Made by a program: the position numbers and the translations under genes | Source of the DNA: Sneathiella limimaris | GTDB lineage: Bacteria; Pseudomonadota; Alphaproteobacteria; Sneathiellales; Sneathiellaceae | Direction of reading: 5' to 3' | Assembly: GCF_012932565.1 (NCBI RefSeq) | Contig: NZ_JABBYJ010000003.1 | Location: 186,001 to 250,000 of the forward strand | Length of the DNA: 64,000 bases | The notes under the pieces: model-generated | Told to the model about the DNA's origin: nothing | Database searches by the model: none | The model's input: only the letters and a program-made list of their open reading frames with translations | In this document: positions 25,356 to 38,310 of the stretch, in pieces | Layout of the letters: each line of letters starts with the position of its first letter | How positions within the stretch are numbered: position 1 is the stretch's first letter

Positions 25356-27464
25356 TTAATTTGCTTCCGGTGGGTTGGAATAATGTGCCCAGCGGTCACG
25401 CCCCCCACGATTATCAAGATAATTGATTAATGCACTAATGGGCCGCCGATCATAGCGCTTATCGGCATCTTCCATCAGAATTCCTACCGCCTTGCTAAAA
25501 TCAAATGCATCACGATATGCACGGGGGCTAACCATTCCGACAAACGCGTTTGCAACCATAATAATTCGAGCAGCCTCATTAATTGCCGTTTCTTTCAAGC
25601 CGCGCGGTTTACCTGTACCGTCCCAATGCTCCTGCAACTGACGAAGTGTCTCTGCGACAGGAAGGTTAAATTTCACCTCTTCCAAGAGATCGGCGCTCGC
25701 AAAAAGACTATCGCGGACAATTTCCATTTCTTCTGTAGTCAGATTTCCGGCCTTGGTCAGAATTTCTGTAGGCACAAGAATTTTACCCAGATTCATGAGA
25801 TTTCCTGCGATATCCACGGTTCGAATGACACGTTCCGTGCTTCCCAGTTCTTCGGCTATAGCAACACCAACCTCTGCCACGCGTGAGGACTGATTAGCCG
25901 AATAGGGATCTCGACGGTCCAAAAAGGCTACTAATGTCGTTACCAGGTTCCGAAGAACAGCTTCTCGTTGCTCTCTTTCCGTGACAACGTCAGTAATATC
26001 CTGAAAAACAGCAAGAAAACTATTAACCTGATCCTTATTCGCTCCGAGCGGAATAATGTCAGATTTCCAGATATGATCCTCCTCGCCTTGGGGGACCTCT
26101 ATGAGTTCACTGGTATTCTGGTTATTTTCTCCGGCCTGGTGCAATAGCTTCTGTATCTGTTCCGCCACAACTGGAGGATAGACAGTCGTTATTCGCCGTC
26201 CGACAACAGCGTCCTTAGGCATCTCAACAGCGTCTGCAGCAACCTTATTTGCAAAAGTAAACCGGTTTTTATCACTAAAAACAGCGATACCTGTGGGCTG
26301 GCTATCTGTAACCACATTCAAAAAATTAGACTGTTCCTGAAGACTATCGGCTGTCTTCTTGTATTTTTCCGCAAGCTCAGCCGCCCTTATTGAGGTTCCA
26401 TGTCTCCAGACCGCCACAACCGTTCCAGTCACACCAAGAATTAGCAACAGAAAAACGCCGAGCATCGTATTCAGACGGTCCTGAGATTCTGAAAGTGCCT
26501 CAAATGTCGTGATACTTCTGACTAAGAACCAAGGCGCCCCTGTTACAGCTCGGCCGGTCACCAGAACTTCATCAGCAAGATAATTTTGCTTTCGTCCAAA
26601 CGCGCCGGGGTTCTCAATGACAAAGGAAGCCGCGCGGCTCTCATCGGTCGTCAACCTACGTTTAAGTGGACCGGTTCCATCAGCAAGAGGAGAAATATAC
26701 TCTGTTAAATTTCCATTCTTGCGGACCAAGTAGGTTTCACTCGTTTGATGAGTTTCTCCCGGTTGATAAAGTCTCGGGAACAAAGATTTTGCTACAGTTC
26801 GAACACCAACAATGAACCCAATGATATTTTCTGCGTCACCATCTTGCTGAATTGCGTAAACCGGATGAACAAAGCCCATAATTGGCTCACCATCGAGCCC
26901 TTCATATAAGTCGATAACAGCAGAAACACCACTATCAGCCTGTGCCATTGCGGCCCGTATTTCTGGTGTCATAGGCGGCATATTTCCGCTGGAAACAAGA
27001 AGCTTCCCTGTCGCATCCATCAGGGCAATTCCCGCCCTGCCTGGCCTTGCAACATTCGCCCTAATTTCAGGTTCTGGGGCTTCCCAGAAACCGCTAATGA
27101 CGGCATGGTTATTTAGCAAGTTCGTAAGATAACCAGCCTCGGGCACTTCCTCAATTCGGGTTCCGTTGTCCTCTGTATCAATGACCAGCTGTGTTAGGTA
27201 AACTTGCAAACTCTCGTTCTCGGCTAGCGAAATAATAGCCTCCTTTTGCTTTGCCAGCCATTCCTCAACGCTCGCTAACCGGCTATCGGCGACTATTCCC
27301 AAACGGATTTCCCAGTTCTGAAGATCCCGTTCCCTCTGCTGATTTACAAAGGTAATCGTTCCCCAAATACCTCCAATCACGACAACCAAAAGCAGAAAAA
27401 TCGCGAAACCAATGACTTTATGGGTTCGTTTTGTCGTGCTGATTTCTTCTTTGATATCCGACAT
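25356..27464 (-). CDS. membrane receptor: periplasmic Cache-like sensor, PAS, degenerate HD-GYP (copy 1)
   Basis: A 702-residue inner-membrane signalling protein. Helix 1 spans about residues 17-38, a large periplasmic region of Cache type follows, helix 2 spans about 328-353, then a PAS domain (about 375-490) and an HD-GYP-type domain (about 497-690). In the last domain the HD metal pair is replaced (GNLMNLGKI near 558 instead of HDIGK), the next conserved His is Asp (IVRDSLFAS), and GYP is GKP in DGTGKP. It should therefore not be a working c-di-GMP phosphodiesterase but may still bind a ligand. It is divergent from the active LapG-like protease gene (200 nt apart) and paralogous to the receptor at 34822-36894. 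Confidence 0.8.
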   Translation of the reverse strand: MSDIKEEISTTKRTHKVIGFAIFLLLVVVIGGIWGTITFVNQQRERDLQNWEIRLGIVADSRLASVEEWLAKQKEAIISLAENESLQVYLTQLVIDTEDNGTRIEEVPEAGYLTNLLNNHAVISGFWEAPEPEIRANVARPGRAGIALMDATGKLLVSSGNMPPMTPEIRAAMAQADSGVSAVIDLYEGLDGEPIMGFVHPVYAIQQDGDAENIIGFIVGVRTVAKSLFPRLYQPGETHQTSETYLVRKNGNLTEYISPLADGTGPLKRRLTTDESRAASFVIENPGAFGRKQNYLADEVLVTGRAVTGAPWFLVRSITTFEALSESQDRLNTMLGVFLLLILGVTGTVVAVWRHGTSIRAAELAEKYKKTADSLQEQSNFLNVVTDSQPTGIAVFSDKNRFTFANKVAADAVEMPKDAVVGRRITTVYPPVVAEQIQKLLHQAGENNQNTSELIEVPQGEEDHIWKSDIIPLGANKDQVNSFLAVFQDITDVVTEREQREAVLRNLVTTLVAFLDRRDPYSANQSSRVAEVGVAIAEELGSTERVIRTVDIAGNLMNLGKILVPTEILTKAGNLTTEEMEIVRDSLFASADLLEEVKFNLPVAETLRQLQEHWDGTGKPRGLKETAINEAARIIMVANAFVGMVSPRAYRDAFDFSKAVGILMEDADKRYDRRPISALINYLDNRGGRDRWAHYSNPPEAN

Positions 27465-27664: not shown

Positions 27665-28291
27665 ATGAAAACATTACTTAGAACATCTCTTGTTTTGGGG
27701 TGCCTCATTTCCTCGCCGACTGCCGCTTTTTCCGAAAGCCCAGATATTTTCGGCTTCAAAGCCTATACACACACAGACCTAAAACCCTTCCCTAAGTGGC
27801 GCAAAGTACTCAATACTTATAAAAACGAACCTGGCCCATGTGGAAATGGGCAATTAAATGCCTGCGCTTATGACAAATGGAAAGAGCTGATCGACCAACT
27901 GAAAGATGAGCCAAAAAAGTATCAACTTACCAAAGTAAATTCATATCTCAATCTATACCGATATGTTCTTGACCCCATTAACTGGGGAATCAAAGACTAT
28001 TGGGAAATCCCCAAAGAGTTCTTCGCCAAGTTTGGTGACTGTGAAGATTATGCGATTGTAAAATACTTTACGCTTCGGGCTCTGGGGTGGGATGCAGATG
28101 ACATGAAGATTGTAGTTCTTCAGGACATGAATTTGCGCATCGCTCACGCCATCTTAACTGTCAAGTTCGAAGAAAAGAAAATGGTTTTGGACAACCAAAT
28201 CGGGCTTGTGATCGATGCCAAAAGAATTCGGCATTATCGGCCAATCTACGCCCTGAATGAAAACGGCTGGTGGCGATATAAGCCTTCTTAA
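27665..28291 (+). CDS. LapG-like periplasmic transglutaminase-fold cysteine protease (active triad)
   Basis: A predicted periplasmic protease of the bacterial transglutaminase-like cysteine proteinase family (LapG). LapG cuts the N-terminal retention region of large surface adhesins and releases them. The 208-residue protein has a signal peptide (about residues 1-24). The catalytic triad is Cys126 in GDCEDYA, His161 in RIAHAIL and Asp176 in VLDNQ. Asp125 and Glu127, next to the Cys, correspond to calcium ligands in characterised LapG. The C-terminal PIYALNENGWW is typical. The gene lies beside a TolC-like gene and a degenerate HD-GYP receptor rather than a LapD gene. The family assignment is firm; adhesin cleavage is inferred. 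Confidence 0.88.
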   Translation: MKTLLRTSLVLGCLISSPTAAFSESPDIFGFKAYTHTDLKPFPKWRKVLNTYKNEPGPCGNGQLNACAYDKWKELIDQLKDEPKKYQLTKVNSYLNLYRYVLDPINWGIKDYWEIPKEFFAKFGDCEDYAIVKYFTLRALGWDADDMKIVVLQDMNLRIAHAILTVKFEEKKMVLDNQIGLVIDAKRIRHYRPIYALNENGWWRYKPS

Positions 28292-28350: not shown

Positions 28351-29691
28351 TTAGTCGTTGCTTGGAAGAGCTTCCTCTGGCAACACTACTCCAAGTGTGC
28401 TGTTCAAGCGTCCCATTGTCGCAAGCAAACGGTACTTAGAGAACAAGACTGCATATTCAACAGTAGCTAAAGCTGTCCGTGAGTTAAAAAGCTCATTATC
28501 AGCATCCAGCATGTCCAGAAGATCCCGCTGACCAATCTGAAACTCTTGACGATATGTTGAAGCGACTTGTCCATTTGCTACAACCTGATCACCGAGAGCG
28601 GCTGCACGCGCTTTAGAACGGGCTAGAATACTCCAACTCTGACGAATTTCTTCTTCAACCAACCGTTCAAAACGAGCCTGACGCTGTTTACTTTCCGCAC
28701 TTCTTTCGACAGCTTCCTGCTGGCGACCGATATCAATGCCACCTCTGTAAAGGTTATATCTAAGACGCAGCATGGCGGTAAAATCATCATTGTGGCCCTT
28801 AACGCCATCAATGTCGTGATCAGCGCTTGCATCAAGCTCAAGCGCAACAGTTGGGTAGAAGTTTGCTTCCGCAGCACGAATTTCCGCATCAGCTGTCTTC
28901 ACGTCTGCTTTTGCAAAGCGAATGTCTGGATTGCTCTCCAAGCCAATCGATACGATATCTTCCAGGTTTTCAGGAAGAACGCCGTCATTAAATTCAGGCT
29001 GCGTCATATCGTTTGGAGATTCACCAACCAACCGACGATACGCGATTTCTGAATTATCCAGCTGACGAAGTGTTTCTGCAAGGGTGGCTTCAGCTGCGGC
29101 AACACGCGCATCAGTTTGTTGCACATCACCAACGCCACTTTGCCCCGCATCGACCCGATCAGTAATTTCAGCAAGAGTCCGTTTGTGGATTTCCAGATTC
29201 TCTTGAGCGAGACTGACAATCTCCCGATTTCTTAACACATCGAGATATGCTTGAACGGCATCCAAACCAATTGCTTCAGCCCGCTCACGAACCCTATAAG
29301 CTGCACCGTCAACTCGGCTCGACTGACGATCAACTTCTGAAGAGCGTGCGCCGCCATCGAAAAGAGTTTGGGAAACAGATAGGCTGCTTTCGGTCCGGGT
29401 CAGCCACTGGTCATCAATTGTAACCGTATCTGTCCACTCTTTACCCCCACCTAACGCCAAATCAACGGAAGGATAATAAAGGCCGTGAGCTTGTTCCAGT
29501 TCCTGATCAATTGCCCGGCGGTTCGCTGCTGCTTCACCTATTTCAGGGTAACTGTTGACTGTAATTTGGACTGCATCCTTCAAAGATGCAGCAAGTACTG
29601 GAGAAACAACACTGGTACTGGCGAGAATGGCTGCCATCACACTTGTTGTTAAAACTTTTCGAGCACTCATAGAGCTCAAAATGGAATTCAT
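28351..29691 (-). CDS. TolC-family outer membrane channel of a type I secretion system
   Basis: The outer-membrane/periplasmic tunnel that completes a tripartite type I exporter. The 446-residue protein has a signal peptide ending near VLAASLKDAV, then two repeated outer membrane efflux halves rich in Ala, Gln and Glu with the GLYYPSVDLALG and ANFYPTVALELDASADHD strand motifs. A LLDMLDADNELFNSR helix segment lies near the C-terminus. A GGGAGAGGGG SD precedes the ATG. It is transcribed away from the ABC exporter gene across a 730-nt regulatory gap and is the presumed partner of the exporter and HlyD-like adaptor (LapE role). Confidence 0.88.
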   Translation of the reverse strand: MNSILSSMSARKVLTTSVMAAILASTSVVSPVLAASLKDAVQITVNSYPEIGEAAANRRAIDQELEQAHGLYYPSVDLALGGGKEWTDTVTIDDQWLTRTESSLSVSQTLFDGGARSSEVDRQSSRVDGAAYRVRERAEAIGLDAVQAYLDVLRNREIVSLAQENLEIHKRTLAEITDRVDAGQSGVGDVQQTDARVAAAEATLAETLRQLDNSEIAYRRLVGESPNDMTQPEFNDGVLPENLEDIVSIGLESNPDIRFAKADVKTADAEIRAAEANFYPTVALELDASADHDIDGVKGHNDDFTAMLRLRYNLYRGGIDIGRQQEAVERSAESKQRQARFERLVEEEIRQSWSILARSKARAAALGDQVVANGQVASTYRQEFQIGQRDLLDMLDADNELFNSRTALATVEYAVLFSKYRLLATMGRLNSTLGVVLPEEALPSND

Positions 29692-30449
29692 GCCCCTCTC
29701 CCAATCAAATTGGACTTTCCAAGACTGTACCCTGCTACAAACAAGTCTTTTATCAAAAACACAAGCATGTCACCTGACTCCCTTTAAAAAAGCGTAAAGA
29801 AAGCTTCGCGCACGGTATATTTATTGTCGGGATAGTATCGTATGTAATCAAATATAGGCAACAGTGACCTTACCCCCTTAAGATTAAATCTCGTGACAAG
29901 CGATTTTGTGTTTTTTTTGCAACGATTTAATCAAACCAATTATTCCAAAAAGCGTAGCAACTAGCTGAGATTCAAGTAATAAAGCTCATCACCTGTTTTA
30001 AAATCTATTGGATTCGGCCAAATCGGTTGAGTATTTACGGTAGTAGACGAGTAACCAAATATAATGTGATCATAAATATCTGATTTTCTTAGCTTGTCAG
30101 GTTCTTTGGGTCGTAAATTTGATCGTAGGCGTCACATTGATCCCAGAGAAGGCCCTCAAACATATTAACCATAATTTGGAATTCCCGCTTGCTCACATCT
30201 AATATTTTGTCAGAATTCATTTTGTTAACATGTTTTTCACTAAAATCGCTTTCTATATAGCTGTCGAATGCAACCATGAGTGTATATCATTCAAACGGAA
30301 GCGACGTGAATTGTAGAGGGGGAATTCCTGAACTCTTGGGTCTACATTGGCCTTTTGAAATCAGGATCTAATAAACGGACAGAATATTCAATTGGGTAGT
30401 ATTCTTCTAGAGACCTCAATTGAACTTATGTCGGGATATGGAACATAGA
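29692..30449. other. AT-rich divergent regulatory interval of the secretion locus
   Basis: About 750 bases between the start codons of the TolC-like gene and the ABC exporter. Base composition is visibly richer in A and T than the neighbours. Apart from a doubtful 62-codon minus-strand ORF (listed separately), no gene is evident. Promoters for both divergent units must lie here. A dense T-run (near 29911) and several short palindromes are visible, but none can be assigned. Confidence 0.5.
30089..30277 (-). CDS. 62-residue hypothetical protein (doubtful)
   Basis: An open frame of 62 codons with an acidic, soluble product that contains FQIMVNMFEGLLWDQ, a possible amphipathic helix. It is the only ORF of note in the AT-rich divergent interval, and no gene overlaps it on the other strand, so it is not a shadow. 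There is no convincing SD before either possible ATG. It was not recognised and may be a chance ORF or a remnant. Confidence 0.27.
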   Translation of the reverse strand: MVAFDSYIESDFSEKHVNKMNSDKILDVSKREFQIMVNMFEGLLWDQCDAYDQIYDPKNLTS

Positions 30450-32771
30450 ATGACAGATAAGCGCACGATGGCGGGAGGGGTTTCTGACGAACCGAGCGCT
30501 ATCGATCTATCAACAACGGAAAGATTGCGATCAATCTCAGAAGGTCCGAAGCCTTCTCTGGACAAAGAGAATACTGATAAGGCTCAAGCATCTTCCGCGG
30601 ATAATGACGAGGATGATTGGGATATCCGCTTATCTGATATCAAACGAACTGATAGCGATCCTTTGCTCGGATGTCTTGTTGCACTCACCAAACTCTTTGA
30701 AGATCCTCGCACAGAAGATGCACTTGTTTACGGGCTGCCGCTTGAAGATAACCGCCTAACGCCAAATCTGTTCGTCCGAGCCGCGGAACGCGTTCGGATA
30801 AGCGCCCGGATTACAAACAGAAAACTGGAAAAAATACCCTCAGTTGTTTTGCCTAGCGTCCTGTTGCTTAAAGATCGCAAAGCTTGCGTCCTTCTTAAAA
30901 AAACAGATACCGAAGCGGAAGTAATTTTCCCGGAAACAGGGGAAGGGCATCAGTCAATCCCTTTGAAAGATTTGGAAAATTTGTATGCCGGTTATGCCAT
31001 TTTTGTCCGGCCAAACTTCCAGTTCCGCATTGAGAGGGATGAAAAGCTTTATCAGCGCAAAGGGTCCTGGTTCTGGGGAACCATGTGGCAGTTTTGGCCA
31101 ACCTACTCTCAAGTCATCCTGGCAGCGTTCTTGATCAACAGTTTTGCCATCGCAAGTCCCCTTTTCATCATGAATGTTTACGATCGGGTAGTGCCTAACA
31201 AAGCACTTGAGACACTCTCTGTCTTGGCATTCGGTGTAATCACCGTAATCTGCTTCGATCTACTGTTAAAAACGCTAAGGGCTTATTTTGTCGACAATGC
31301 GGGTAAGCGGGCAGATGTGCTTTTATCCAGTCGTATCTTTGAACAAGTCCTCAACATTCAGGTCAAGGCGAGGCCGCAATCCGCTGGTGCATTTGCAAAC
31401 CACTTGCGAGAATTTGAAACCCTGAGGGATTTCTTCACCTCTGCAACAGTTACCGCCTTGGTCGACCTACCGTTTCTTGGGGTATTTCTTTTCATAATCT
31501 ACCTGATCGGGGGCCCAATAGCCATCGTTCCGGCAATAGCCGTTCCTGTTGTCATTCTAATCGGCTTGCTACTGCAATGGCCAATGCGTCGTTCTGTTGC
31601 CAAAAATACAGAAGAAAGTTCTCAAAAACACGGTGTCATCATTGAAACCATTTCGGCCCTGGACACGGTGAAAAGTCTTGGTGTCGAAGGGCATATGCAA
31701 AAAGAGTGGGAACGGTTCGTTGGCCAGACAGCTAAAACCAGCGTTGTTTCCCGCTTTTTTGCGACACTTGGTATTAATCTGTCCGCTGCGGCTATGCAGT
31801 TAGTCACCGTATTCGTGGTCGTTTACGGTGTTTATCTGATGTCACAACCAGATAGCACGATTACAATTGGTGCCCTTATCGCCTCCACGATTTTGACAGG
31901 TCGGACAATGGCACCACTTGGTCAAATTGCGGCATTGCTGACCAGACTGAACCAAGCGATGGTTGCCCTTAAAGGCCTCAACCAAATCATGGCTTTACCT
32001 GTTGAAAGAGCGGCCGAAAAACGACAACTCAGCCGCCCGAACATCCATGGTGAAATCGAATTTAAAGACGTGACCTTCAAGTACCCTGGAACAGAACTTC
32101 CAGCACTATCCAACGTCTCTTTCAAAATCCGACCTGGTGAAAAAGTTGCGATCATTGGCCCCGTTGGATCTGGAAAAACAACTATTTCCCGCCTGCTGAT
32201 CAACCTTTATGAACCTGACGAGGGGGCAGTTCTAATCGACGGGACAGATATACGGCAAATCGATCCGTCTGACATCCGACGTTCGGTGGGAAGCGTTATG
32301 CAGGATGTAACTCTATTCCAGGGAACTGTTCGCCAGAATATTACCATGGGTCATCCTCAGGCTGACGATGAAATGATTTTGAAAGCCGCCAAAATGGCTG
32401 GAGTGCATGATTTTATTTCTCGGCACCCGCACGGCTATGATCTGAAGGTCGGGGAAAAAGGCGCAACCTTGTCTGGGGGCCAAAGACAGTCAATGGGTAT
32501 TGCCCGTGCGTTGTTACCCAATCCTCCAATTCTCATGTTTGATGAACCTACGAGTTCCATGGACCTAAACTCCGAACGCCAGTTCATCTCCAGGCTCAAG
32601 AAATTTGCGGAAAATAAAACTCTGGTTCTTGTAACACACAGAACCTCCCTCTTCTCAGTCGTTGATCGAATTATCGTTCTTGGACATGGCAAGGTTGTCG
32701 CTGATGGGCCAAGAGATGAAATCCTAAAAGTAGGGCAACGCTCAAACAAGAAGTCTGGCAAAGCATCATGA
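30450..32771 (+). CDS. LapB-type ABC exporter of a type I secretion system
   Basis: The inner-membrane ATPase/permease that drives type I export of a large protein. After a hydrophilic N-terminus comes a C39-like domain without a catalytic Cys (about residues 55-180), as in exporters of RTX-type adhesins. Six-helix transmembrane domains follow (about 195-475). The ATPase domain has Walker A GPVGSGKTT, signature TLSGGQRQSMG, Walker B ILMFDEPTSSMD and an H-loop His in LVTHRTS. Start codon choice is uncertain: TTG 30420, ATG 30438 and ATG 30450 are in frame, and 30450 is used here. It is the first gene of a four-gene operon with the adaptor, a LapG-like pseudoenzyme and a receptor. Confidence 0.87.
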   Translation: MTDKRTMAGGVSDEPSAIDLSTTERLRSISEGPKPSLDKENTDKAQASSADNDEDDWDIRLSDIKRTDSDPLLGCLVALTKLFEDPRTEDALVYGLPLEDNRLTPNLFVRAAERVRISARITNRKLEKIPSVVLPSVLLLKDRKACVLLKKTDTEAEVIFPETGEGHQSIPLKDLENLYAGYAIFVRPNFQFRIERDEKLYQRKGSWFWGTMWQFWPTYSQVILAAFLINSFAIASPLFIMNVYDRVVPNKALETLSVLAFGVITVICFDLLLKTLRAYFVDNAGKRADVLLSSRIFEQVLNIQVKARPQSAGAFANHLREFETLRDFFTSATVTALVDLPFLGVFLFIIYLIGGPIAIVPAIAVPVVILIGLLLQWPMRRSVAKNTEESSQKHGVIIETISALDTVKSLGVEGHMQKEWERFVGQTAKTSVVSRFFATLGINLSAAAMQLVTVFVVVYGVYLMSQPDSTITIGALIASTILTGRTMAPLGQIAALLTRLNQAMVALKGLNQIMALPVERAAEKRQLSRPNIHGEIEFKDVTFKYPGTELPALSNVSFKIRPGEKVAIIGPVGSGKTTISRLLINLYEPDEGAVLIDGTDIRQIDPSDIRRSVGSVMQDVTLFQGTVRQNITMGHPQADDEMILKAAKMAGVHDFISRHPHGYDLKVGEKGATLSGGQRQSMGIARALLPNPPILMFDEPTSSMDLNSERQFISRLKKFAENKTLVLVTHRTSLFSVVDRIIVLGHGKVVADGPRDEILKVGQRSNKKSGKAS

Positions 32772-32807: not shown

Positions 32808-34136
32808 ATGGCTAATCAAACTGAATGGAATGATACCGATTTTGCCTCGGATGTGGTCGCTGCAAAAATGCAAGGCCCGAACCCAAAGTCCATGCTGCTA
32901 TTGTTTGGTGTAATTGCCTTCTTCGTGGCAGCTTATATTTGGGCGGACAATGCCATTCTTGATGAAGTCACACGTGGCGACGGAAAGGTTATCCCCTCAT
33001 CTCAGGTTCAAATTATCCAAAATCTCGAAGGGGGTATCCTGAAGGAGTTGCTCGTTCGGGAGGGAGAAATTGTCGAAAAGGGACAAATTCTGCTCAGAAT
33101 TGATGATACAGGCTTCGCCGCGCGATTTGGTGAAATTGAGGCGAAATACCTTAACCTAATGGGTAAGATCGCCCGCCTAAAAGCTGAGGCCGAAGGCAAG
33201 GGTATCGAATTTCCGCCCGAATTGTTAGCGGAAGGCCAGCAAATCTCGATCCGTGAACAAAATCTTTTCAATGCGCGCCAAGCGGAATTACAATCTCAGA
33301 TTACTATTCTTCGCCAGCAGGCCCAGCAGCGCAAACAGGAAATCACCGAGATCGAGGGTCGCTTGACCCAGCTTAGATCCAGTATCGCGCTCGTTAATGA
33401 AGAGCTATCGATTACAGAGCCTCTTGCAGCCAAAGGAATTGTTCCCAAAGTCCAGCTTCTGAAGCTTAAACGGGAAGCAAACGAGCTCAAAGGACAGATT
33501 TCAGCCTCCAACCTCGCGTTACCCAGAGCGAGAGGTGCTTTGCAGGAAGCCAATCAACGCATCGAAGAAAAAATCCTGAATTTTAGAAGTCTGGCTTCTC
33601 AAGAGTTAAGTATCGCCAGAGCTGAGTTTGAGTCTGTCCGTCAAACTATCCTGGCAGCACGTGATCGGGTTACCAGGACGGATGTTCGTTCACCGTTAAA
33701 AGGGGAAGTCAAGGAACTGAAGATTCAAACAATCGGTGGCGTTGTTAAACCCGGTCAGGATATTGTGGAAATTGTTCCGATTGAAGATAACTTGTTGGTT
33801 GAAGCAAAAATTCGCCCATCCGATATCGCCTTCCTTCGCCCCGGACAAAAGGCGACAGTTAAGATTACGGCTTATGATTTTTCTATCTACGGCGGTCTTC
33901 CGGCAACCGTTGAACGGATCAGTGCAGATACGACTGTAGATGAACAAACGGGTCAGACATTCTATAAAATTATCGTGCGCACTCAGGAAGCCTCATTGAA
34001 GAGAGGGGATGAGATTTTCCCCATTAAACCAGGCATGATTGCAACAGTCGACACTTTGACTGGTCATAAGTCTGTCTTGGATTACATCCTGAAACCGATC
34101 CTTAAAACCAAGAATAATGCGCTTAGGGAGAGATGA
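32808..34136 (+). CDS. HlyD-family membrane fusion protein of the type I secretion system
   Basis: The periplasmic adaptor linking the ABC exporter to the TolC-like channel. The 442-residue protein has one N-terminal membrane helix (about residues 28-47), a biotinyl-lipoyl half motif around GDGKVIPSSQVQIIQNLEGG, a long coiled-coil hairpin (about 105-270, rich in Gln, Glu and Leu), and a C-terminal beta-barrel with RTDVRSPLKGEVKELKI and KPGMIATVD. An AGGAAGAG SD precedes the ATG. Its stop overlaps the next gene by 4 nt (ATGA), so translation of the LapG-like pseudoenzyme is coupled to it. Confidence 0.9.
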   Translation: MANQTEWNDTDFASDVVAAKMQGPNPKSMLLLFGVIAFFVAAYIWADNAILDEVTRGDGKVIPSSQVQIIQNLEGGILKELLVREGEIVEKGQILLRIDDTGFAARFGEIEAKYLNLMGKIARLKAEAEGKGIEFPPELLAEGQQISIREQNLFNARQAELQSQITILRQQAQQRKQEITEIEGRLTQLRSSIALVNEELSITEPLAAKGIVPKVQLLKLKREANELKGQISASNLALPRARGALQEANQRIEEKILNFRSLASQELSIARAEFESVRQTILAARDRVTRTDVRSPLKGEVKELKIQTIGGVVKPGQDIVEIVPIEDNLLVEAKIRPSDIAFLRPGQKATVKITAYDFSIYGGLPATVERISADTTVDEQTGQTFYKIIVRTQEASLKRGDEIFPIKPGMIATVDTLTGHKSVLDYILKPILKTKNNALRER

Positions 34137-34825
34137 TGAAGGTTATCAGACTCCTCTTACTGAGCAGCATCATTTGCTCTTTTGCCTTTTCAGGTAGCAA
34201 CAGCAATGCCCAAGACGCTGATGGCTTGTTTGGTACATTAGAAATTGCGTCTAGCGATCTTCAAGCCCTGCCTCAGTGGCGCAGAGCTTTAGCAAGCTTT
34301 TCCGACCTGAAGAAAGCGGCGAAAGCGTGTGACGAAGATATTTTGAAATGCAACTCCCAGCAGATGACACTTTGGCGGACAAAAATTCAGGAACTGGAGC
34401 ACAGTCCTAAAAGCATTATCATGCGGCAAATCAATCAGTTTGTGAATAAATGGCAGCATAACAGTGATTGGGCAACTTATCGCCATCAAGACTACTGGGC
34501 TTCTCCCCTTGAGTTTCTAACTGTTGGAGGGGATTCAGAAGATTTCGCGATCATGAAATATGTGAGCCTGAAAGAATTGGGATTTTCTTCTGAGCAAATG
34601 CGGATCGTTGTAACCCGTGATGTCCTGCGCGGTGTAACGCATACTATTCTGAGTGTTCAATTGAACAACAAATCATATGTTCTCGACTCTCAAACCGACA
34701 CTGTTTTTCAGGAAAAATTTATCAAGTACTACGTACCTCTCTATTCCTTGAATGAGACAACCCGTTGGGCCCATATCCCAAGTCAATATATCGCAGCCAG
34801 TAACGCAGCGAGGATCGATCAATGA
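34133..34825 (+). CDS. LapG-like periplasmic protein with catalytic Cys replaced by Ser
   Basis: A 230-residue exported paralogue of the LapG-like protease at 27665-28291. It has a signal peptide (about 1-27) and keeps the family frame: LQALPQWRRALASF, YWASPLEFL, SLKELGFSSEQMRIVVTRD and PLYSLNETTRWAHIP. His170 (VTHTIL) and Asp185 (VLDSQ) of the triad are present. The nucleophile position is Ser135 in GGDSEDFA (codon TCA at 34535-34537), although the flanking Asp134 and Glu136 calcium-ligand positions are kept. It is probably a non-catalytic homologue, perhaps a decoy, chaperone or receptor ligand. It overlaps both neighbours by 4 nt, HlyD upstream and the HD-GYP-type receptor downstream. Confidence 0.87.
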   Translation: MMKVIRLLLLSSIICSFAFSGSNSNAQDADGLFGTLEIASSDLQALPQWRRALASFSDLKKAAKACDEDILKCNSQQMTLWRTKIQELEHSPKSIIMRQINQFVNKWQHNSDWATYRHQDYWASPLEFLTVGGDSEDFAIMKYVSLKELGFSSEQMRIVVTRDVLRGVTHTILSVQLNNKSYVLDSQTDTVFQEKFIKYYVPLYSLNETTRWAHIPSQYIAASNAARIDQ

Positions 34826-36894
34826 CAGAAGCTACCGCGCATTTCGAACTGGAACGGTTTCTTGAAGAAAAAGCCCCGCAGGAAAAATCAAACAGTGGGG
34901 TGAACAAGCCCATTTCAATTGCATTGGGATCTATCCTTTTACTGTTAATTGCCTGTGCCTGGATTTCTTATGTCATCATTCAAGATAAGAAAACTGAGAT
35001 CTTGAACAGTTTGGAAACTCGCCAGCAAATCGCTCTCAATGGTAAGGCTGACGTCTTCAGAACATGGATTGAACAATCTGCGCAGCAGGCCAATACACTG
35101 GTTGGGAACCCACTCATCAAGCTATTTGCTTCGGAAATTCATGCACTGAAGGGGCAGGAACTTTCCCCAGCTCTGTCGGCTCAACTCCCTTTCATGCAAA
35201 ACGCGATTAACCAGTTTGTGCGGGAAAACAATCTAATTGCGGCCTATATGATCGGATCTGATGGACGTGCTTACCTTGCTTCTAGTAACTCCCCTAGTCT
35301 TAGCAGGGAGCAAAGAGAGCTTGCGCAAAAACAATATTCGGCTTCTGAATATTCCACATCTCCTCTTCATTTAATCGACGGAGAGGTAGCCATCGATTTT
35401 GTTATTCCAGTCTTAGCAGCTCAACCACTGACTGAAAACACGAACGAGCCGATCGGCGCTTTTCTCATGACACTCTCAGCCGCAAATCCGCTGGCAGGAA
35501 TTCTATCCAGAACTCCAGTGTCCATGTCAGGGGAAAGAACGCTTATCTTTCAAAAGGGTGAGGCCGGATATAACGAAGTCACACCAAACCGTCCGCCTTT
35601 TCTAAAAACTGAAGAGACCTTTTCTTTAAATGAGGACCTCACCTCATTTACCGAGCGTGAACTCGACAGAATGCAGGGGTATAGTTACACGGTCAGCCGG
35701 ACGATTGAAAACACACATATATTGCTTTTACAGGCAGTCCCATCTGATGTCGCTCTCCAACCTTTAAAAACATACAGCTATGTTGTCCTTGGCTTAGCGG
35801 TGAGCGTATTTGTGGTCGTCTGCAGTATCGGCAGTGGGATCTGGTTCAGCTTGAGAACCCAAAATGCCAAAAACCTCGCCGATCAATATAAAGATCTGGC
35901 CCAGCGGATAAATGCGCAAAGACGCCTTCTTGGGAATATCAACAGCACTGTACAAGATCTGATCAGTCTCAAGGGCCCTGATGGAACGTATGTATATGCG
36001 AACCCTGCTCTCGCCAGATTTGTCGACTTTCCAGAGACCAGTATACCTGGAAAAACAGATCGTGACCTTTTTGGTGATAAGATTGCCCGGAAATTCTCAG
36101 AGATGGACAATCAAGTGGCTGAGACCGGAGAAACAGTCAATGAGATCCTGGAGCTGGAGCTTCAGAAAAAATCGAAGATTGTCCGCGTTGAAAAATCTCA
36201 ATTGGTGGATGATGACGGCACATTCCTTGGTATCGTCACCGTGAGTGGCGACATTACTGACTTCATCACATTCCAAAGACTCAAAGATGAGTTGGGTCAA
36301 AAAACCATTTCTATTCTTGTTCGCATGCTTGAGGCGAATGACCCGCATCTTGCTGGGCATTCAAACCACATGAGCGTTTTGACAAGCAATGTAGCAGATA
36401 TCCTCTCGCTCACTCGCGAACAGAAAGAAAACCTTCATGCAGGTGCTAACCTCTCGCAGATTGGGAAAATTTCTATCCCGGCCGAAATTCGAACAAAAGA
36501 AGGCAGGCTATCAGAATCTGAAAAGCAGATTATGCAGGGCCACGTAACGAAAGCAGAGGCTCTGCTGCGAGAGATGGAAATTGATGAAGCTGTCATAACG
36601 GCAATATGCCAGATGTACGAACGCCAAGACGGATCTGGATATCCCCTCAATTTGGAAGGGCAACAAATCGATTTGCTTGCTCGAATCCTTGGTATGGCAG
36701 ACATCTTGGTCGCCCGTGTGTCGCCCAGAAGCTACAGAAGCGCCATCAGCGTAGAAGAGGCGATGGAAGTCTTTCGAACAAATCCTGACAAGTATGATGA
36801 AAAAATTGTCGAGGCCTTTGATCAATTTCTCGGGACAAAAGCCGGAGAAGCTTTTGAAGAGTCTTTGAAACAGGCTGCCGCAGATATGCAATAA
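34822..36894 (+). CDS. membrane receptor: periplasmic sensor, PAS, degenerate HD-GYP (copy 2)
   Basis: A 690-residue inner-membrane signalling protein of the same design as the one at 25356-27464. Helix 1 is about residues 30-52, a periplasmic Cache-like region follows, helix 2 is about 316-338, then PAS (about 370-484) and an HD-GYP-type domain (about 493-680). The HD pair is lost (GANLSQIGKI), while one later His (MQGHVTKAEAL) and the GYP signature (DGSGYP) are kept. The HHE motif is changed to MYERQ. Catalysis is unlikely; c-di-GMP or another ligand might still bind. It is the last gene of the exporter operon, overlapping the Cys-less LapG-like gene by 4 nt, the position where LapD would be expected to function. 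Confidence 0.8.
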   Translation: MTEATAHFELERFLEEKAPQEKSNSGVNKPISIALGSILLLLIACAWISYVIIQDKKTEILNSLETRQQIALNGKADVFRTWIEQSAQQANTLVGNPLIKLFASEIHALKGQELSPALSAQLPFMQNAINQFVRENNLIAAYMIGSDGRAYLASSNSPSLSREQRELAQKQYSASEYSTSPLHLIDGEVAIDFVIPVLAAQPLTENTNEPIGAFLMTLSAANPLAGILSRTPVSMSGERTLIFQKGEAGYNEVTPNRPPFLKTEETFSLNEDLTSFTERELDRMQGYSYTVSRTIENTHILLLQAVPSDVALQPLKTYSYVVLGLAVSVFVVVCSIGSGIWFSLRTQNAKNLADQYKDLAQRINAQRRLLGNINSTVQDLISLKGPDGTYVYANPALARFVDFPETSIPGKTDRDLFGDKIARKFSEMDNQVAETGETVNEILELELQKKSKIVRVEKSQLVDDDGTFLGIVTVSGDITDFITFQRLKDELGQKTISILVRMLEANDPHLAGHSNHMSVLTSNVADILSLTREQKENLHAGANLSQIGKISIPAEIRTKEGRLSESEKQIMQGHVTKAEALLREMEIDEAVITAICQMYERQDGSGYPLNLEGQQIDLLARILGMADILVARVSPRSYRSAISVEEAMEVFRTNPDKYDEKIVEAFDQFLGTKAGEAFEESLKQAAADMQ

Positions 36895-37509: not shown

Positions 37510-38310
37510 TCAGTTCGCAGAAGCTGACGTCACGAATCGAATAAATTGCTGACTGGAGACCGCAAGCCCCAGAGAGTTACCGTTTTTAAAGGGGACTGTT
37601 GCTGAGTGGATAGCCACAATACCCACCTGTTCCTCTTGATATTGCAGTATGGGAGAACCTGAGTCGCCTTGCGTCGCATCACAATTGTGAACGAAAACAG
37701 GATCAGAATTTTGAGAAGGTTTTTGTTTAGATGTAATCTGACAATTCTTATGGACTGTCAGAACGTGCGCATAGTCGCGACTATAGCCTGCTTGATAAAC
37801 AACTGCCGGCCGCTTGGATTTCAGCTTTGATGTAACTGAATTTTCGTTCCAGATTGGCACTGGGCGAAACTGGGGGTCAAGATCCTGATCCAAAGTCAAA
37901 ATCGCCCAATCTTCAGATCTTGGAAAGTCAGTAAACGCTTTCGTGGGTGGAGATCCATATCGAGTTACGTAAGAAACACCTTTAGCATGCGCCGCATAAT
38001 TTCCCTTCTCATATCCTACGACGAAATGAAAAAATCGGGCCAAAGACCAGCGTCTAGTCCGGGTGTTCCAAAAACAATGAGCAGCCGTCAGAACTTGATT
38101 GGAGCTAATTAATATCGCAGTACAAAAACCGCCATCCTTATTCAAACGCCCAATCGAACTCCAAGGGTACTCTTGGATATTAACTCGCCCTCGATCATCT
38201 GCTCCCTTGATCCCTCGCGGAAAAACTTGTCGCTCCGCAGTAGAGTTTCCAACAAGAAAAAAACAAACACACAAGAGAGTGAAAAAGATCTTGAGAGCAG
38301 TCTGTTTCAT
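37510..38310 (-). CDS. secreted trypsin-like serine protease
   Basis: A chymotrypsin-fold (S1) endopeptidase of 266 residues with a signal peptide (about 1-25). Catalytic His is in LTAAHC, Asp in RSEDWAILTL, and Ser in ATQGDSGSPIL, so the triad is complete. Four Cys can form two disulfides, consistent with a periplasmic or extracellular location. It lies beside the adhesin-type secretion locus, 3 nt after a small lipoprotein gene on the same strand, so the two are probably co-transcribed. Its substrate is unknown. Confidence 0.88.
   Translation of the reverse strand: MKQTALKIFFTLLCVCFFLVGNSTAERQVFPRGIKGADDRGRVNIQEYPWSSIGRLNKDGGFCTAILISSNQVLTAAHCFWNTRTRRWSLARFFHFVVGYEKGNYAAHAKGVSYVTRYGSPPTKAFTDFPRSEDWAILTLDQDLDPQFRPVPIWNENSVTSKLKSKRPAVVYQAGYSRDYAHVLTVHKNCQITSKQKPSQNSDPVFVHNCDATQGDSGSPILQYQEEQVGIVAIHSATVPFKNGNSLGLAVSSQQFIRFVTSASAN

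Follow-up and report, generated by a model that had tools for sequence, protein, structure and literature searches.

The 64,000-nucleotide stretch of the Sneathiella limimaris genome analysed here (the window; contig NZ_JABBYJ010000003.1, positions 186,001–250,000) carries two LapG-type genes, one encoding the catalytic Cys and one in which Ser takes its place. Judged by sequence comparison, the Ser-bearing protein (pseudo-LapG) is a pseudoprotease under purifying selection, with a dN/dS in the measurable pairs like that of its live paralogue, and it very probably has a selected, non-proteolytic function exercised together with the receptor DvhD2. LapG-type adhesin release is a main example of inside-out control by c-di-GMP; in the accessible text of published accounts, such release works by cutting. 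If a dead member of the family has indeed been long conserved beside a live one, binding alone would carry regulatory information. We found no earlier description of such a protein in the literature, in a search whose coverage excludes most subscription journals and bioRxiv preprints.

The pseudo-LapG gene and its surroundings

Type B denotes proteins that lie nearer the Ser gene and whose own gene precedes one for a DvhD2-like receptor, and type A those like the Cys LapG at 27665. The features of the locus, in window coordinates, are:

25356–27464, minus strand: DvhD1, second DvhD-like receptor, transcribed divergently from the Cys LapG, with MN for HD (Pfam, PDB match, site survey)
27665–28291, plus strand: LapG paralogue (type A) with Cys in GDCEDY (Pfam, alignment)
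28351–29691, minus strand: TolC-like outer membrane factor (Pfam)
30420–32771, plus strand: T1SS ABC transporter whose N-terminus has a weak C39-like match that falls short of the Pfam cut-off; the start codon is uncertain (Pfam)
32808–34136, plus strand: HlyD-type membrane fusion protein, with a 4-base overlap with the pseudo-LapG start (Pfam)
34133–34825, plus strand: pseudo-LapG (type B, DvhG-like), with Ser135 replacing the catalytic Cys (ORF, Pfam, alignment, AlphaFold2 model)
34535–34537, plus strand: TCA codon of Ser135, the nucleophile position of pseudo-LapG (sequence, alignment)
34822–36894, plus strand: DvhD2, with dCache, PAS and degenerate HD-GYP, SQ for HD; its ATG overlaps the pseudo-LapG stop (Pfam HD_5 and PAS; PDB matches 9rc0, 9rbz, 9rc2; site survey)

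The genes run in the order DvhD1 (−), LapG-Cys (+), TolC (−), ABC (+), HlyD (+), LapG-Ser (+) and DvhD2 (+), the last four making up the T1SS operon, and the T1SS association of DvhDG-like genes is represented by the ABC, HlyD and TolC genes that adjoin in the window. A sequence-only reading of the window had placed pseudo-LapG in an operon with overlaps on either side, and this is borne out by four shared bases at each joint, the HlyD gene ending at 34136 and the receptor gene starting at 34822. A gene for a trypsin-like serine protease (37510–38310, opposite strand; recognised by eye in translation) lies directly downstream of the operon.

Translation of the ORF gives 230 amino acids with no internal stop, in agreement with the earlier description of an otherwise intact protein. 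Pseudo-LapG belongs to the LapG/BTLCP family and has its transglutaminase-like fold: it matches Pfam Peptidase_C93 (LapG/BTLCP) with an E value of 2e-15 and, by sequence, the LapG structures 4fgo (1.1e-19) and 4u65 (4e-13), and its AlphaFold2 model (pLDDT 90, pTM 0.83) returned LapG chains as all of the top six Foldseek matches in the PDB. Export is predicted by eye from the N-terminus. Alignment with 22 Sneathiella orthologues and Cys paralogues puts Ser135 in the column of the catalytic Cys and finds Asp134, Glu136, His170 and Asp185 all in the window protein, exactly the set of residues (with codon TCA) that had been read from the DNA alone. The Cys-His-Asp triad is incomplete, with Ser135 at the Cys site and His170 and Asp185 in place, and both of the calcium ligands that flank this site, Asp134 and Glu136, are kept.

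According to the available text of the source papers, LapG C135A (PMC3032545) and DvhG C317A and D316A/E318A (PMC13090378) are inactive, and HvyA C192S, C192A and H226Q are non-functional (PMC4241560). Because the Cys mutants of LapG, DvhG and HvyA all fail to function in these reports, pseudo-LapG is probably non-catalytic. HvyA of Caulobacter is, like pseudo-LapG, an alphaproteobacterial periplasmic BTLCP, but it requires its Cys, and its C192S and H226Q substitutions (Cys to Ser, His to Gln) are changes that occur naturally in the clade described below. The complete Ser-His-Asp set and calcium ligands in the window's subclade leave a small chance of activity there.

A whole-genome search found two PF06035 genes, pseudo-LapG and the Cys paralogue at 27665, which are 31% identical. 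An active Cys protease is absent from the operon itself, where the LapG gene has Ser; the residues are kept by the paralogue, which from its sequence is apparently a working enzyme. The type A LapG and DvhD1 resemble pseudo-LapG and DvhD2 as paralogues in the same locus, but differ in that Cys is present in 21 of 21 Sneathiella copies and in that the type A gene is transcribed away from its own receptor.

Conservation, selection and descent

We compared 24 Sneathiella genomes, the window's own included. The Ser-type gene is found in 23 of them, without an internal stop in any (four are cut by contig ends), and is missing only from G016, which is 56% complete. Cys-bearing orthologues, the finding that would have reduced the Ser to an accident of one strain, were looked for in the genus and none was seen; Ser at the site in 23/23 rules out a sequencing error or strain-level lesion. 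The window protein and 13 others combine Ser with both calcium ligands, and have His and Asp where readable. In the other nine both Asp134 and Glu136 are lost (GGSRD, GRSRD, GGSKD, GSSVD); one of these nine has Gln for His170. One truncated row is unreadable at His and Asp. The calcium site had been proposed as part of what is selected, a view that does not survive, because 9/23 orthologues have lost both ligands and dN/dS in the measurable pairs is still low.

Five of the 16 pseudo-LapG pairs have dS < 2; they all belong to the subclade whose active site is most altered, and their dN/dS (NG86) is 0.06–0.10. For the Cys paralogue four of 15 pairs can be measured and give 0.06–0.11; the other pairs (11/16 Ser-type and 11/15 type A) have dS ≥ 2 or undefined and are uninformative. 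The low values in measurable pairs make decay of pseudo-LapG unlikely. The 67 live rows compared (40 type B and 27 type A) all have Tyr109, Cys135 and Ala171, and nearly all have Tyr121 and Tyr138. In 21 Sneathiella pseudo-LapG rows Cys is absent throughout, Tyr138 has become Phe in 20, and Tyr109, Tyr121 and Ala171 are changed in 18, 14 and 12, respectively, while Ser75 to Leu80, Arg82, Lys84, Ile85, Glu87 and Leu88 are invariant in these proteins and variable in live relatives. By this comparison, the set of residues under constraint has changed in pseudo-LapG. The cleft has nevertheless not been abandoned to decay, since among 28 rows of the non-Cys clade His170 is present in 27 and Asp185 in all. 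Several lines of evidence, namely Ser in 23/23 orthologues, the wider non-Cys clade, purifying selection in the measurable pairs and the inactive published Cys mutants, thus give good support to the earlier proposal of a selected non-catalytic role.

The Cys-type gene is found in 21/24 Sneathiella genomes and both types together in 20/24, on one contig in 18 of these and on separate contigs in G005 and G006; in the genomes without type A (G007, G009 and G023) the contigs stop just upstream. The HlyD gene is split into two ORFs in G008 (L041:5489-6831) and G023 (L057:2298-3650), as is DvhD1 in G008 (L041:12205-14362), each being either a real break or an assembly error. Outside Sneathiella, a Cys type A accompanies a dead type B in G024, G405 and G410. 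A rule that dead type B always occurs with live type A has exceptions and remains a tendency: the type A frame of G408, a MAG, keeps Cys and has one in-frame stop, so that its state is unsure; G202 has a Cys type B (L219) instead of type A; G406 and G409 gave a single match each; and G407 has a different fragment, which bears Cys but does not belong to type A.

Relatives were drawn from the best 80 of 98 loci from one search and from 385 and 384 genomes of the class sampled in two more. Type B proteins outside the dead clade (Desulfuromonadales, Desulfovibrio, Geminicoccaceae and other MAGs) keep Cys, as read, except L161. Many Cys type B loci have HlyD and ABC genes upstream; Geminicoccaceae-like loci have neither upstream, and their flanks show the receptor alone or neither. 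Outside Sneathiella, type B proteins without Cys have Ser (L089–L091 and L101), Thr (L095), Ala (L105), Pro (L058, same family) or Asp (L161). Wherever the contig extends far enough, loci of the non-Cys clade have HlyD before pseudo-LapG and DvhD2 after it.

To place these proteins we used a tree of 96 protein rows, a subset of our own choosing with the active-site columns removed; partial rows L037, L040 and L045 (L037 being included as L097), distant rows L061, L064, L067, L068, L069 and L070, some type A and B copies, and L218 were kept out. One clade unites 28 of 29 non-Cys rows (Ser, Thr, Ala and Pro), with SH-aLRT 93 in the quick tree and 99/93 in the careful tree, in which the bootstrap was not fully settled. 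Loss of the Cys therefore probably predates the genus; on these sequences, it came before the sampled Sneathiella species split. A single loss does not hold as a firm rule, as the clade's mixture of Ser, Thr, Ala and Pro would fit one loss followed by drift or several losses. The Asp row of G202 falls outside the clade, which implies at least two Cys changes. This alphaproteobacterium has three LapG-like genes (L219, L220 and L346) with Cys, Asp and a very divergent Ser copy, and the 16 kb surrounding the Asp gene showed no HlyD gene. L068 is by score nearer the window's Ser type than the Cys type, yet has Cys.

As a base rate, we took 60 further PF06035 loci, chosen non-randomly from the two class-wide samples, in which L311 had already been read as L173; Cys is kept in 58 of them, 54 scored by script and 4 by eye from its output. 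The two exceptions, L345 (Arg, short) and L346 (Ser, very divergent), are both among the weakest matches. Elsewhere outside the clade Cys is replaced in L064 (Arg), L218 (Glu, short ORF) and L161 (Asp); the scattered copies L064, L218, L345 and L346 indicate that Cys loss occurs outside the clade too.

Receptors and candidate adhesins

Pfam and PDB matches place DvhD2 with receptors of the DvhD kind and not with those of the LapD kind, which have GGDEF and EAL domains. By sequence it matches the solved D. vulgaris DvhD in both the PAS/HD-GYP part (9rc0, 2.8e-49) and the dCache domain (9rc2, 9e-17), and so has the dCache, PAS and non-catalytic HD-GYP makeup of a DvhDG receptor. DvhD1 matches 9rc0 in its PAS/HD-GYP part (8.4e-41) and shows no match to the 9rc2 dCache structure in its periplasmic part; the two receptors are 21% identical. 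Pfam scans of both found neither GGDEF nor EAL domains. The DvhD structure matches and the lack of these domains mark the operon as DvhDG rather than LapDG in kind, as the former is described in the available text of PMC13090378. Pseudo-LapG and DvhD2 share with DvhG and DvhD of Desulfovibrio vulgaris the BTLCP fold, the T1SS genes and a dCache/PAS/HD-GYP receptor with SQ for HD. DvhG, however, is a calcium-dependent Cys protease, whereas the window protein has Ser at the nucleophile, and the window locus holds a second LapG-receptor pair. The same text gives a contact of DvhG with the adhesin retention domain and, as a model, one between DvhG and the DvhD dCache domain (PMC13090378). With LapG/LapD of Pseudomonas fluorescens and Legionella the likeness is one of family and fold (4fgo, 4u65), together with an adhesin site of the DP + PAAG kind in the window's genome, but the window locus is without a GGDEF/EAL receptor and pseudo-LapG without the catalytic Cys.

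With residue numbers fitted from the paper to the printed DvhD chain, five of the eight DvhD c-di-GMP contacts (L577, K582, Y621, R650 and Y652) recur in the window's DvhD2, which differs at Y523, M646 and E668. In the dead-clade receptors readable here L577, Y621, R650 and Y652 are always kept, and K582 is mostly Met or Gln. In Sneathiella DvhD1, Y621 is replaced by Gln, His or Lys in 18/18 rows and K582 is missing in 14 of 17 readable rows. If these residues act as they do in DvhD, the dead pair would receive more of the c-di-GMP input than the Cys pair.

Elsewhere in the window's genome, a 1851-aa RTX ORF (L253) with a retention-like start and the LapG-type site NFDPDAVAPAAGG is, by motif and resemblance, a candidate for the adhesin of a DvhDG system, which would combine a retention module with a cleavage motif. 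The LapA-type retention domain NF033682 had no match in this genome. A flagellin-like ORF (L253:92-1249; by eye) adjoins the RTX gene, and a second candidate adhesin is a 1421-aa ORF with FDPSKINPEAG, a non-canonical LapG-like site (L257:4592-8878; G000 C2 near 350 kb). The N-terminus of the RTX ORF is matched in 18/24 Sneathiella genomes, and in nine genomes of one subclade (L267–L275) P[QE]AG or PASG replaces PAAG. Seven of the nine Sneathiella genomes with lost calcium ligands have an adhesin match, with P[QE]AG in 7/7; G020 (PASG) and G022 (PQAG) have an altered site despite intact ligands. Beyond Sneathiella, G024 and G408 pair lost ligands with intact AAG adhesins, so that a general rule linking calcium-site loss to an altered adhesin site fails. 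G410 has one AAAG and one TAVG site, G407 combines intact ligands with AAG, and the adhesin search gave no match in G405, G406, G409 and G202.

Possible roles of pseudo-LapG

Preservation across the genus despite the lost cutting residue suggests that pseudo-LapG acts by binding and not by cutting. Our best overall explanation, to which we give a probability of about 0.6, is a protein that binds the adhesin without cutting it and, controlled by a receptor, shields the cleavage site. Pseudo-LapG would still bind the partners that its ancestor had: the dCache domain of DvhD2 in the periplasm and, on the adhesin, the retention module and the cleavage segment. Most likely it would occupy the retention module or the cleavage site, leaving the adhesin shielded from the Cys LapG, and DvhD2, in which five c-di-GMP contacts are kept, would set its availability. 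The retained His and Asp weakly favour adhesin binding over pure receptor binding. The protection of the adhesin from the Cys LapG is the tentative step, and we think it somewhat more likely to be wrong than right. As published, a receptor that has bound c-di-GMP holds its LapG in check. At high c-di-GMP DvhD2 would then keep the shield away from the adhesin, although this is the very condition that calls for adhesion; for shielding to work, the c-di-GMP sign would have to differ from that logic, or the receptor-bound form would have to be the active one. It also counts against shielding that the failed covariation removes a would-be tie of the pseudoprotease to the cleavage site, and that G171 and G348 carry Cys type A plus Cys type B, so that two pairs need not make one die. 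With similar reserve we suggest that one adhesin-release switch may have been split into two c-di-GMP-gated receptor-LapG pairs, one cutting and one binding, with release set by competition of live and dead proteins at the same cleavage site. The natural variants (Ser, Thr, Ala and Pro, with and without the calcium site) offer a means of separating receptor binding, adhesin binding and cleavage.

The main rival, which we consider unlikely, turns the effect around: pseudo-LapG would be a decoy that occupies DvhD2, and perhaps DvhD1, leaving the Cys LapG free to cut and favouring release. Its gene overlaps the receptor gene, cleft chemistry is unnecessary for receptor binding, and all 41 proteins compared, dead and live, have P202, Y204 and N207. 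With positions counted by hand on the alignment, these residues correspond to the part of P. fluorescens LapG in which, in the available text of PMC4359373, V205 and Y206 cross-link to LapD. The strong divergence of the two receptors nevertheless suggests separate pairing, and near-complete retention of His170 and Asp185 is unexpected if the receptor-facing surface alone matters. The same two residues would not be needed by a pure scaffold, and we regard as distinctly improbable a structural subunit or co-receptor, whether built permanently into DvhD2 on the periplasmic side or linking that receptor to the T1SS, serving assembly or signalling, even though clade loci, where the contig reaches, always have the gene with HlyD on one side and DvhD2 on the other and a new invariant patch (positions 75–88) has appeared.

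There is little to recommend a changed chemistry with Ser as the nucleophile of a serine hydrolase: the window protein and its 13 similar orthologues do pair Ser with both calcium ligands, and with His and Asp where readable, but clade relatives have Thr, Ala or Pro at the site, others are without calcium ligands, in one His is replaced by Gln, and HvyA C192S is non-functional in the available text of PMC4241560. A neutral relic or decaying gene is hardly credible. In seven more distant pairs pseudo-LapG is the less conserved protein (57–68% identity, versus 73–80% for the Cys paralogue), but in close pairs both genes are equally conserved, and the gene persists in 23/24 genomes with no internal stop and with a dN/dS of about 0.1 even in the subclade whose site has changed most.
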